DNA of 33,841 bases from an uncultured Erysipelotrichaceae bacterium. GTDB taxonomy: Bacteria; Bacillota_I; Bacilli_A; RF39; UBA660. Position numbers and translations under genes: made by a program. The stretch lies in assembly GCA_902797995.1 (NCBI GenBank), contig CADBUX010000013.1:1-33841 (forward strand). The letters are read 5' to 3'. Each line of letters opens with the position of its first letter. Position 1 is the first letter of the stretch. Under the pieces are notes generated by a model. The model did not search any database, had not been told where the DNA came from, and was given only the letters and a program-made list of their open reading frames with translations. Shown here one piece after another: positions 2,872 through 7,482 of this stretch.

Positions 2872-3780
2872 ATGAATCAAATAGTTTATAATAATATAAA
2901 AATAGAGAATCTTATTTATGAAATAAGAGGAAAACAAGTAATGTTTGATTCTGATTTGGCAATGTTATACCAAACAGAGACTAGGGTAATCAATCAAAAA
3001 GTAAAGCGTAATATTAATAGGTTTCCGGAAGAATTTTGTTTTAAACTTTCAGATAAAGAGTATAAAAACTTGAGGTCACAAAATGTGACCTCAGTACCAA
3101 AATCAAATTATGGAGGTCGTAGGTATAATCCATATGTTTTTACTGAATCTGGTGCTGTTATGCTTTCTGCTATATTAAACACTGATGTTGCTGTAAAAAC
3201 TTGTATAAAGATTATGGATGCTTTTGTTACTATGCGTAGGTATATGTCTGATGAGCTAATAGAACAACGATTTATAAATAATATAGTTATGGAGGATCAT
3301 GAGTTATTAAAGCAAAGTAATAGAGATATAAAATTGTTACAGGAAACTTTAAAAAAGTTTGAAGAGAAGAAAAAGGTAAATGATATATTTTTTACAAATC
3401 AAATATATGATGCTTATTCTAAGATAAAAGATATATTTTATTTAGCAAATAAAGAACTAATAATTATAGATAGCTATGCTGATAAAACAGTACTTGATAT
3501 GATAAAAGATTTAAATGTTAAAGTATTATTAATAACTAAATATAATAATAAATTAAGTAATTTAGATATAGAAAAATATAATAAACAATACTCTAATTTA
3601 AAAGTAATAAGAAATAATGATTTTCATGACAGATATTTTATACTAAATAAACAAGAAGTATATCATTGTGGTACTAGTATAAATTATGCTGGATCAAAAG
3701 TGTTTTCTATAAATATACTTGAAGATATATTTGTTAAAAAGTCTTTAATTAATAAAATAAATATGGTTACTGATAAATAA
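2872..3780 (+). CDS. ORF6N-domain protein with C-terminal PLD-like region
   Basis: A 302-residue protein of the phage-derived ORF6N class. The N-terminal domain (about 10-120) holds the hallmark series: IRGKQVMFDSDLAMLY, KRNINRFPEEFCFKL, LRSQNVTS and the YVFTESGAVMLSA helix. A coiled segment (about 130-165) links it to a C-terminal half (170-300) with FHDRYFIL and YHCGTS motifs, commonly found behind ORF6N and resembling a minimal phospholipase-D/nuclease fold. ORF6N is thought to bind DNA; the cellular role of stand-alone copies is unknown. A perfect inverted repeat lies inside the gene (3071-3093). The gene has its own promoter and overlaps cse60 tail to tail by 14 bases. It is probably horizontally acquired. 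Confidence 0.85.
   Translation: MNQIVYNNIKIENLIYEIRGKQVMFDSDLAMLYQTETRVINQKVKRNINRFPEEFCFKLSDKEYKNLRSQNVTSVPKSNYGGRRYNPYVFTESGAVMLSAILNTDVAVKTCIKIMDAFVTMRRYMSDELIEQRFINNIVMEDHELLKQSNRDIKLLQETLKKFEEKKKVNDIFFTNQIYDAYSKIKDIFYLANKELIIIDSYADKTVLDMIKDLNVKVLLITKYNNKLSNLDIEKYNKQYSNLKVIRNNDFHDRYFILNKQEVYHCGTSINYAGSKVFSINILEDIFVKKSLINKINMVTDK
3071..3093. repeat. perfect inverted repeat inside the ORF6N gene
   Basis: TGAGGTCACA (3071-3080) and TGTGACCTCA (3084-3093) are exact reverse complements separated by AAA. It encodes the LRSQNVTS segment at residues 67-74. Comparable repeats sit at the matching place in the RhuM and KilA-N genes. Confidence 0.9.
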
Positions 3781-4059: not shown

Positions 4060-6411
4060 ATGAATAAGACAAAATTACCTGTTTTAGTACTTAAAAATAT
4101 AATTCTTTTTCCTCATAGTGAAATAAGACTGGAACTTGAAAATGATAAAGATAAGGAGCTTATTTCACTTGCTGATTCTTATTATAATAAACATATTTTA
4201 ATTATTCATCCAAGTAATGAACTTGAAGATTCAATTGATAAAACAAGTTTTCCTAGAATTGGAGTAATTGGTTATATTAATATGAAGATTGATCTTCCTA
4301 ATAATAGAACTAGAATTGTTATACGAGGACTTAATAGAGTAAAAGTTCTTTCTTATGGATTAGAAGATGGGATAAATGTTTCTTTCTTTGAAGATATAAA
4401 AACAAGCGAACTTAGTACTACAGAGCAAATGGCTTATTCTAGGAGTTTAATTAAACAAACAGAATATTATATTGAACACTGTCCTGATGTTAGTAATAGT
4501 ATTTTATCTGATATTTTAGGTGTTAATGATATAGATAAGATTACTGATATTTTAACTATGTTTATACCTGGATCTTATGAAAGAAAGCTAGAGTATTTAA
4601 ATGAAACTAATTCTACAACTAGAGTTATGATGCTACTAGATGATATTAATTTAGAGGTTTCTATTACTGATTTGGAACAAGAAATAGAAGATAAAGTTAC
4701 TTATGAACTTGATAAGACACAAAGAGAATATATTTTGAATGAAAAAATAAAGATAATGAAGGATGAGCTTGGAGAAGGTTATGATAAAGATCATGAGATT
4801 GACACTTTGAAAAACAAGCTTAATAATTCTCACATTCCCCTTTATGTGAAACAAAGACTTGAACTTGAAATAAAAAGATATGAAGCAACACCTGCGATGT
4901 CCTCTGAAATAGGTATGCTTAAGTCTTATATTGATACTTTATTTGCTCTTCCTTGGAATAAATATACTGAAGATAATAGTGATTTATCTTTAGCTAAAGA
5001 AAAACTTGATAAAACCCATTATGGTTTAGTTGAGGTTAAAGAAAGAATAATTGAATATTTAGCTTTAGCTCAAATGACTAAGGGTGTTAATAATCCAATT
5101 ATATGTTTTGTAGGCCCTCCAGGTGTTGGAAAAACTACTTTTGCTAAAAGTATTGCGGATGCAATAGGTAGACGTTATGTTAAAATTTCTGTTGGGGGAG
5201 TTAATGACGAAGCTGAAATAGTAGGACATAGAAGGGCTTATATAGGGTCTAGTCCTGGTAAAATAATAGATGGTATAAAAAGAGCAGGGGTTTCTAATCC
5301 GGTATTTGTTATTGATGAGATTGATAAAATGACTAAGGATATAAAGGGAGACCCAGCATCAGCTTTACTTGAAATTCTAGATAAAGAACAAAATAAATTT
5401 TTTGTAGATCATTATATAGAAGAAGAATTTGATTTATCAAAGGTAATGTTTATACTTACTGCTAATTATATTGATAGAATACCTGAAGAACTTCTTGATA
5501 GATTAGAAGTAATAGAAATATCTAGTTATACTGAATATGAAAAGTTTAATATTTGTAAAAACTATATTATTCCAAATGGTATAAAAGAGTATGGACTTAG
5601 TAACTATAATATAGATTTTACAGATGATGCAATATTTAAGATAATTAGAAATTATACAAAAGAGGCTGGAGTAAGAGAGCTTGAAAGAAAAGTATATTCT
5701 ATTTTTAGAAAACTTATAAAAAAAATAGTAGTAGAGAATCAAGAAACATTAAATATAGTAGATGTTGGTCTTGTTAAAGATCTTTTAGGTAATGAAATAT
5801 ATACTAATACAGTAAACCCTGATAAGGATAATATCGGTATAGTAAATGGTATGAGTTATACAATATATGGTGGAGATATTCTAAAAATAGAAGTTAATTT
5901 CTATGAAGGTGACGGTAAGATTATTACTACTGGTAGTCTTGGGGATGTTTTTGTAGAAAGTACAAAGATTGCTCTTAGTTATATAAAGAGCAATTATAAA
6001 AGATTTGGTATTGATTATGATAAGCTTTTAAAAAGTGATATACATATACATGTTCCAGAAGGTGCTGTTAAAAAGGATGGACCAAGCGCGGGTATAGCTA
6101 TTACTACTGCTATTATTAGTGCTTTTACTAATTTAAAAATAAAAAGTAATATTTCAATGACTGGGGAAATTACTTTAAGAGGAGAAGTGCTTCCTGTTGG
6201 TGGATTAAAAGAGAAAATAATTGGAGCTAAAAAAGCCGGAATAAAGAAAATATTTTTACCACAAGGTAATGAAGAAGAGGTTAATTCTTTTGATAAGGAA
6301 ATTACTTCTGATATAAGATTTATTTATGTTAATAATTATTTACAAGTATTTGATAATATAAAAGAAAAAAGTAAAAATAAAAAACAAGTAAAACATACTA
6401 TTAAAGAGTAG
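4060..6411 (+). CDS. lon: ATP-dependent Lon protease
   Basis: A 783-residue LonA-type cytoplasmic protease that unfolds and degrades misfolded and regulatory proteins. Domains in order: LON substrate-binding domain (about 5-195), coiled segment (200-300), AAA+ module with Walker A GPPGVGKT (352-359) and Walker B VFVIDEIDKM, and the C-terminal serine protease domain with the nucleophile in DGPSAGIA (Ser676) and the lysine in GGLKEK (Lys719), the usual spacing of 43 residues. Length is typical of LonA. It is monocistronic, with a promoter at 3998-4025 and a terminator overlapping its last codons. Confidence 0.97.
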   Translation: MNKTKLPVLVLKNIILFPHSEIRLELENDKDKELISLADSYYNKHILIIHPSNELEDSIDKTSFPRIGVIGYINMKIDLPNNRTRIVIRGLNRVKVLSYGLEDGINVSFFEDIKTSELSTTEQMAYSRSLIKQTEYYIEHCPDVSNSILSDILGVNDIDKITDILTMFIPGSYERKLEYLNETNSTTRVMMLLDDINLEVSITDLEQEIEDKVTYELDKTQREYILNEKIKIMKDELGEGYDKDHEIDTLKNKLNNSHIPLYVKQRLELEIKRYEATPAMSSEIGMLKSYIDTLFALPWNKYTEDNSDLSLAKEKLDKTHYGLVEVKERIIEYLALAQMTKGVNNPIICFVGPPGVGKTTFAKSIADAIGRRYVKISVGGVNDEAEIVGHRRAYIGSSPGKIIDGIKRAGVSNPVFVIDEIDKMTKDIKGDPASALLEILDKEQNKFFVDHYIEEEFDLSKVMFILTANYIDRIPEELLDRLEVIEISSYTEYEKFNICKNYIIPNGIKEYGLSNYNIDFTDDAIFKIIRNYTKEAGVRELERKVYSIFRKLIKKIVVENQETLNIVDVGLVKDLLGNEIYTNTVNPDKDNIGIVNGMSYTIYGGDILKIEVNFYEGDGKIITTGSLGDVFVESTKIALSYIKSNYKRFGIDYDKLLKSDIHIHVPEGAVKKDGPSAGIAITTAIISAFTNLKIKSNISMTGEITLRGEVLPVGGLKEKIIGAKKAGIKKIFLPQGNEEEVNSFDKEITSDIRFIYVNNYLQVFDNIKEKSKNKKQVKHTIKE

Positions 6412-6426
6412 TTTACTTGTTTTTTA
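6382..6426 (+). terminator. terminator of lon
   Basis: AACAAGTAAA at the end of the coding region pairs with TTTACTTGTT around 6412-6421, followed by T residues. The stem straddles the lon stop codon. Confidence 0.6.
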
Positions 6427-6446
6427 CATAATAACTTTATTATATA

Positions 6447-6566
6447 AATAAAAAGCATCTGATAACACAAACCCTGTGTTTTCAGATGCTACACCCAAAT
6501 AAGGATTAGCATTTGACATTCACTTTCAAATGTATCCTTTTTTATTTTATGAAGTTTCCTTCATCT
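6447..6566 (-). ncRNA. candidate small RNA with three hairpins
   Basis: Read on the minus strand, a promoter (6573-6601) is followed by three hairpins. First is ATGAAG-GAAA-CTTCAT (6549-6564), a perfect stem closed by a GNRA-type tetraloop. Second is AAGGAT...CATTTGA/TCAAATG...ATCCTT (6501-6539). Third is AGCATCTGA-a-AACACA with TGTGTT-a-TCAGATGCT (6454-6490), a strong stem followed by TTTTTATTTAT, an excellent terminator. A single-stranded linker holds ATTTGGGTGT. The predicted transcript is about 120 nt and has no convincing open reading frame. I do not recognise a known family. Alternatively the hairpins are only back-to-back terminators. Confidence 0.5.
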
Positions 6567-6572
6567 GTATAC

Positions 6573-6601
6573 ATTGTATCATAAATGTTTGTTTTTTACA
6601 A
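6573..6601 (-). promoter_or_regulatory. promoter of the candidate small RNA
   Basis: On the minus strand, TTGTAA (6596-6601), a 17-nt spacer and TACAAT (6573-6578). The predicted start is near 6566. Confidence 0.5.
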
Positions 6602-6645: not shown

Positions 6646-7482
6646 ATGAAAGAGGTTATTATTGATACTTTGATTGATTCTATTAAATTATTACCATTTT
6701 TATTTATTGCATTTTTATTAATAGAATTATTTGAACATAAGTTTAGTGAAAAGAGTAAGGAAAAACTATCTAATTCAAAAAAAATAGGACCAGTTATTGG
6801 AAGTATATTTGGTATTATTCCGCAATGTGGATTTAGTGTAATGGCTACTAATTTATATGCTACTAGGATTATATCTATAGGAACTTTAATAGCAGTATAT
6901 TTATCTACAAGTGATGAAATGATTCCGATACTAATTGCAGAAAAAGCTCCAGTTAGTTTACTACTTAAAATATTAGCTATTAAACTTGTTGTAGGAATGA
7001 TATGTGGTATTATTATTGATTTAGTTATAAAAAGAAAAGATAAAGAAGATTATCATATATGCGAAGATGATCATTGTCATTGTGACGCGCACTTCTTTAA
7101 AGCTTCAGTTAAACATACTTTTAATATATTTATATTTGTAATGGTTTGCACTTTTATAATAAATTCTATTATGGAATTTGGAGGAAGTGATTTACTTAAT
7201 AAAATATTTTTAAAAGATAATTTATTTGCACCTTTTTTAACAAGTTTAATAGGACTTATTCCTAATTGTGCATCTTCTGTTATACTTACTGAATTATTTC
7301 TAAATAAAGCAATATCTTTTGCATCTTTAATTGCAGGACTTTTAACAGGAGCAGGAATTGGAATACTAGTATTATTTAGAACTAATAAGAATAAAAGAGA
7401 AAATGTTTTTATACTTTTAACGGTATATTTTATTGGGGTAATCTTTGGTATTATTTTAGAAATATTTACAAAAATATTATAG
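6646..7482 (+). CDS. ArsP_2-type putative heavy-metal exporter (membrane permease)
   Basis: A 278-residue polytopic membrane protein. Two halves are related: each has a hydrophobic block with a cysteine motif, IIPQCGFSV (about residue 62) and LIPNCASSV (about residue 206), as in the ArsP_2 (DUF2899) family of putative metal or arsenic exporters. Between the halves is a cytosolic or exposed loop rich in His, Cys and Asp (HICEDDHCHCDAH, about 139-151), a probable metal-binding site. The substrate is unknown; relatives have been annotated as manganese or arsenic transporters. GGTGG precedes the ATG. It is followed by a terminator, so it is likely transcribed alone. Confidence 0.7.
   Translation: MKEVIIDTLIDSIKLLPFLFIAFLLIELFEHKFSEKSKEKLSNSKKIGPVIGSIFGIIPQCGFSVMATNLYATRIISIGTLIAVYLSTSDEMIPILIAEKAPVSLLLKILAIKLVVGMICGIIIDLVIKRKDKEDYHICEDDHCHCDAHFFKASVKHTFNIFIFVMVCTFIINSIMEFGGSDLLNKIFLKDNLFAPFLTSLIGLIPNCASSVILTELFLNKAISFASLIAGLLTGAGIGILVLFRTNKNKRENVFILLTVYFIGVIFGIILEIFTKIL

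Follow-up and report, generated by a model that had tools for sequence, protein, structure and literature searches.

A predicted minus-strand RNA between lon and a putative exporter gene

What is the small RNA predicted on the minus strand between lon and a putative exporter gene, and does it have a function there? The site lies within a 33,841-nucleotide stretch of DNA, called the window throughout, from an uncultured Erysipelotrichaceae bacterium. Comparison with related genomes indicates that the RNA is very probably the antitoxin in a type I toxin-antitoxin family found widely across the taxonomic family of uncultured Bacilli to which the organism belongs. The features of the locus are listed below by position.

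4060..6411, plus strand: lon, neighbouring gene with its own terminator at about 6382-6426
6417..6428, plus strand: left copy of the direct repeat TTGTTTTTTACA, at the end of the lon terminator
6429..6451, plus strand: apparent remnant of a toxin ORF, last codons ..ITLLYK and stop codon TAA (6449-6451), without start codon, ribosome site or promoter
6447..6566, minus strand: predicted antitoxin RNA of about 120 nt, with promoter, terminator, fold z = -4.5 and a match to the family model
6450..6489, minus strand: hairpin 3 (6489-6455) and U-run (6454-6450), predicted antitoxin terminator, with compensatory pair changes
about 6490..6502, minus strand: unpaired linker TTATTTGGGTGT, which differs from copy to copy
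6503..6537, minus strand: hairpin 2, whose plus-strand reading probably terminates the toxin mRNA in intact copies
6534..6548, minus strand: A-rich leader, the best-conserved part of the RNA family
6549..6564, minus strand: hairpin 1, ATGAAG-GAAA-CTTCAT (tetraloop), GAAG/CTTC vs CAAG/CTTG among copies
6573..6578, minus strand: -10 element TACAAT, extended by TG (TATGATACAAT), with a 17-nt spacer to the -35
6589..6600, plus strand: right copy of the direct repeat TTGTTTTTTACA, by position in the -35 region of the exporter gene
6596..6601, minus strand: -35 element TTGTAA, within flank sequence common to a same-genus genome that lacks the RNA
6646..7482, plus strand: membrane permease or putative exporter gene, neighbouring gene

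The preliminary description had proposed a promoter with 17-nt spacing, a tetraloop hairpin, a second hairpin, a linker and a terminator on the minus strand, and all of these elements were located there. The separate terminator it had given to lon was also found, and lon does not overlap the RNA. Two features of the site had been missed: hairpin 2, with the T-run beside it (6536-6545), resembles a plus-strand terminator too, and the tail of a toxin ORF lies at 6429-6451.

The minus strand of the site folds at -40.2 kcal/mol, compared to -24.0 ± 3.6 kcal/mol for 200 shuffled sequences (z = -4.5). Promoter matches of the quality seen here are not significant alone in A+T-rich DNA (14 seen vs 7.0 expected in 1 kb). 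The antitoxin promoter is credible because the same promoter is kept in more than 150 copies, rather than from match quality alone, and TATGnTAnnAT is conserved at the -10 across the alignment of copies (A1). An Rfam search at gathering and permissive thresholds returned just chance-level partial matches (tails of RsaJ and Srn266), far under the gathering scores. A short peptide encoded in the A-rich AAAAAAGGA leader was also considered and was dropped after inspection of the alignment.

The RNA belongs to a multicopy family

Searching at the DNA level turned up several similar sites within this genome and many in its relatives, whose genomes are mostly draft metagenome assemblies. Common to most copies are the promoter, the hairpin T[GC]AAG-GAAA-CTT[GC], the leader ATAAAATAAAAAAGG and then two more variable hairpins. 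A covariance model (R1) was built from 36 copies; the window RNA scores 94.4 bits against it (E 1e-15), a value to be read with the window copy being itself in the training set. R1 matched 9 copies in the genome of the window (E <= 0.01); within the same taxonomic family it had matches in 101 of the 145 genomes, at most 25 in any one of them. Beyond that taxonomic family, there was 1 match in the 198 genomes of the class that were searched. Tandem copies are frequent, as on contigs G024:C15 and G029:C16.

Hairpin 3 carries compensatory changes at two pairs, A-U to C-G in 13 sequences and C-G to A-U in 9 sequences. Hairpin 2 has a few compensatory changes. Hairpin 1 shows a GC/CG swap, seen in the alignment and in a loose automatic search that at times chose another stem. 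In intact copies both strands would be transcribed, and so the changes in the three hairpins could reflect constraint on either strand. The promoter, leader hairpin and both large hairpins, conserved family-wide and with compensatory changes, thus support the proposal of a minus-strand small RNA about 120 nt long; a lack of such conservation in related genomes had been named as grounds for abandoning the proposal. What had gone unrecognised is that the RNA would act as the antitoxin in a type I toxin-antitoxin locus that here lacks its toxin half. The guess of an isolated small RNA is thereby replaced by a large type I toxin-antitoxin family of small-genome uncultured Bacilli, apparently not described before. 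A literature search, for which most subscription journals were out of reach, found no description of the RNA family.

A phage origin was considered and rejected, since two exact leader patterns retrieved no IMG/VR contig, in a search that diverged copies would escape. On the 5' side of the antitoxin -35, many copies (L006, L008, L014, L018 and L019 among them) have a variable inverted repeat, for example AACGACTTGTCAAAAAGTCGTTTTT, which ends in a T-run and overlaps the -35. This could be a terminator that insulates the antitoxin promoter.

A short hydrophobic ORF faces the RNA

In most copies, the stop codon of a short ORF on the opposite strand falls just past the terminator of the RNA. The 157 distinct copies with enough flanking sequence were scanned for ORFs of 18-46 codons that were hydrophobic and preceded by a Shine-Dalgarno (SD) sequence, using thresholds that were fixed once and later relaxed for counting losses. 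A convergent ORF of this kind was present in 121 of the 157 copies, compared to 3 of 157 in the same-strand control, and its typical length was about 25-30 codons. The peptide groups include MTKREFSQFIIILLLFLVVIILLLK, MKKKDLLISFLILIIILLIVSLMILSIKK and MKTKTFIIKVLKLIAIILFLLIIMIVVIKK. Six representative peptides matched no family in Pfam and NCBIfam, Fst included, so the label "toxin" is drawn from layout, size and hydrophobicity, together with the asymmetry of loss described below.

In the MTKRE group (36 distinct ORFs), pN was 0.107 and pS 0.45 (pN/pS 0.24), and third positions vary most, a pattern indicating that the peptide is under purifying selection. The 5' UTR of this group places the ribosome site within a potential stem, CTTTC...GAAAGGTGG. 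One locus (L104; G034:C5:9500-10700) joins an MTKRE-group peptide to a 5' UTR from another group (GGGAATATCAGTTG...), and this mix suggests recombination between subtypes.

Overlap, pairing and asymmetric loss suggest a toxin-antitoxin pair

In intact copies, the predicted toxin mRNA and antitoxin RNA converge and would overlap over hairpins 2 and 3. Hairpin 3 and its U-run would terminate the antitoxin, while hairpin 2 and the T-run of the opposite strand would terminate the toxin mRNA; the complement of the leader forms the U-tract of the toxin terminator. Because the overlap spans two hairpins, perfect pairing is predicted between the antitoxin and the 3' portion of the toxin mRNA. Cognate cofolds of intact copies in the genome of the window gave -89 to -113 kcal/mol. 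Against just the 5' UTR of the toxin, the antitoxin paired no better than shuffled sequences, so the strong pairing belongs to the 3' part. By analogy with txpA/RatA and bsrG/SR4, the duplex would be degraded by RNase III, which is plausible since the genome encodes this enzyme, and production of a membrane peptide of 25-30 residues would be stopped. We infer that the RNAs are transcribed, that the peptide is toxic and that the RNase III step takes place.

An independent toxin-side model (R2) was made for the MTKRE group and gave 40 matches above 47 bits in 14 genomes. All 39 testable toxin loci face the antitoxin RNA, and the 40th is cut by a contig end. The converse does not hold: under the relaxed scan, 31 of the 157 antitoxins have no toxin-like ORF, and thus about a fifth (roughly 20 percent) of the antitoxins of the family lack an intact toxin. 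This slightly overcounts the losses because at least one of the 31 (L174) has a toxin-like ORF barely under the hydrophobicity cut-off. Several of the 31 have a toxin interrupted by a frameshift or a stop codon, and about 18, as counted by eye, lack the 5' part. Antitoxins without a toxin thus appear to be tolerated and no toxin without an antitoxin was seen, as expected for a toxin-antitoxin pair.

The toxin mRNA may also pair with itself. The 5' end paired with its own 3' end at -32.9, compared to -22.1 for mismatched loci. These values come from the 69 loci that a strict transcript-start pattern retained, few of them from the toxin group of the window, and some transcript starts are wrong, with at least one (L044) placed too far upstream.

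The window copy appears to have lost its toxin

By sequence, the window copy is an orphan antitoxin: its toxin gene has lost the promoter, the 5' UTR and the first two thirds, and so only the antidote seems to have been kept. The remnant ..ITLLYK matches the ends ..FILITLLYK and ..FIVITLLYK of two intact copies of the same genome (C26 and C10, respectively). The insert is flanked on both sides by the 12-nt direct repeat TTGTTTTTTACA, and the lon-exporter gap of a same-genus genome (G001) is an empty site with one copy only, TTGTTTTTTG. By position, this single copy could be the tail of the lon terminator and the exporter -35 at once. Reading the repeat as a target duplication is tentative because TTGTTTTTTACA is low in complexity. 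No copy of the RNA was found in the lon-exporter gap of same-genus G001, G003, G004 and L078, and a same-locus origin within the genus was rejected on that basis.

The genome also contains a second orphan antitoxin (C19) and a copy that has collapsed between repeats (C5). Intact, decayed and orphan loci occur together in multi-copy genomes, which therefore lend themselves to direct tests of how type I systems cross-talk and in what order they decay. In a same-genus relative (L078/L200), the lon-exporter gap is occupied by a truncated gene fragment together with a MITE-like hairpin whose ends are TATATCAAAAGAACTGG, so this gap looks prone to insertion.

The window RNA was also paired in silico with the toxin mRNAs of other copies. 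It gave -50.9 and -56.0 kcal/mol with those of C26 and C10, respectively, while shuffled sequences had a mean of about -4 and a minimum of -12, and it gave -2.3 with the unrelated C27 subtype. The cross-pairing is about half the cognate strength (about -106), as a thermodynamic estimate for isolated RNAs. Given the strong predicted pairing with the C26 and C10 mRNAs, the orphan could silence related toxins in trans; this cross-neutralisation, too, we infer from the folding model.

Other explanations for the RNA

The position of the RNA between lon and the exporter gene, where its -35 region and that of the exporter gene adjoin back to back, could suggest an independent regulator of one of these genes that has nothing to do with toxins. 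This is very improbable, given that the RNA does not overlap the lon transcript, that its relatives occupy many unrelated chromosomal places and that it is missing from the same gap in same-genus genomes. Hairpins with T-runs on both strands, in many copies, would also be seen if the element were a bidirectional terminator or a MITE-like spacer repeat with no RNA function and with accidental ORFs. Purifying selection on the peptide, the ribosome sites and two independent conserved promoters make that scarcely credible.

Within the toxin-antitoxin reading, the window RNA would today be either a relic with no role or a partial silencer of the paralogous C26 and C10 toxin mRNAs in trans. We give an even chance to its being a plain relic, a toxin-antitoxin fragment between lon and the exporter gene that never functioned there or no longer does. 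The truncated toxin, the repeat TTGTTTTTTACA at both sides with its single copy at the empty site, and a -35 element that falls in flank sequence fit this explanation, whereas the -10, hairpins and terminator are free of breaking mutations. The RNA is also 82-85 percent identical to its nearest relatives, and a copy from another genus (85 percent) is no more distant than the paralogues within its own genome (82-83 percent), which speaks against a relic. The orphan may be a relic that has not yet decayed. It is possible, though rather unlikely, that it has been kept by selection as a trans-acting anti-addiction RNA, which would dampen the paralogous toxins when they leak or are induced by stress. 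The promoter, three hairpins and terminator are all intact despite the missing toxin, the predicted pairing is strong with C26 and C10 and absent with C27, and further orphans exist (C19 and the about 18 5'-deleted loci among 157 copies). Nevertheless, three same-genus genomes have no copy at the equivalent place, an RNA gene of 120 nt could persist by chance, and the cognate antitoxins are already there with pairing twice as strong. A more general proposal, and a doubtful one, is that solitary antitoxins form a genome-level immunity layer, persisting after the loss of their own toxin and silencing paralogous and partly SOS-controlled toxins in trans. If true, this would account for the frequency of antitoxins that lack a toxin.

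Comparison with known type I systems

Judged by sequence, the family has the general attributes of type I systems: a hydrophobic toxin ORF, which is missing at the window copy, an antisense RNA with its own promoter and terminator, which is intact in the window copy, and complementarity of the antitoxin to the toxin mRNA. The par locus of pAD1 (Fst/RNA II) and the Fst family of Firmicutes have convergent promoters, a short hydrophobic toxin, a small antitoxin RNA, overlap at the terminator hairpins, repeats that link the 5' UTR of the toxin to the region of the terminator, and a ribosome site in a stem (PMC7472228). The new family shares the convergent promoters, short hydrophobic ORF, small RNA and terminator-hairpin overlap, as well as the 5' UTR-terminator repeats and the ribosome site in a stem. 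It differs in that the PxxxG motif is absent from the peptides read, which have no Pfam match, and in being chromosomal with up to 25 copies per genome. In place of the one shared bidirectional terminator of par, the two RNAs appear to use separate terminator hairpins, which lie side by side and have a T-run on one strand each.

In the txpA/RatA and bsrG/SR4 systems of B. subtilis, the two genes converge and the antitoxin runs antisense to the toxin mRNA at its 3' end; the toxins are longer and prophage-borne. The new family is likewise convergent, and its antitoxin also covers the 3' region of the toxin transcript, but it has shorter peptides and yielded no IMG/VR contig with the two exact leader patterns.

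Toxin promoters and a possible SOS link

By sequence, the toxin genes have a promoter of their own: the -35 TTG was conserved at 92/85/80 percent in 116 loci aligned on the TATAAT-like -10. An AAC-N4-GTT dyad was present in 35 of these 116 toxin promoters, compared to 0.27 expected. The lexA gene of the genome is preceded by a similar dyad, AAACATTTGTTT, and because of this resemblance some of the toxins look SOS-controlled. The tisB/IstR-1 pair of E. coli is an SOS-controlled type I system in which IstR-1 is divergently encoded. The dyad at part of the toxin promoters is a likeness to tisB/IstR-1 and ties the family to SOS-controlled membrane peptides, while the convergent layout and the lack of a toxin promoter at the window copy are differences.

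In the genome of the window, five loci (L031, L032, L033, L035 and L036) have TTACCAA-like motifs 5' of the toxin promoters, paired at a distance of about 10 bp in either direct or inverted orientation. These motifs take the place of the LexA-like dyad of relatives and possibly belong to a different regulator. Elsewhere in the window, a LexA-box-like dyad, CGAACGCACGTTTG, lies at 2813-2826, about 45 bp 5' of an ORF at 2872-3780; it is one of just two palindromic sites in the genome with at most one mismatch from CGAACNNNNGTTCG.
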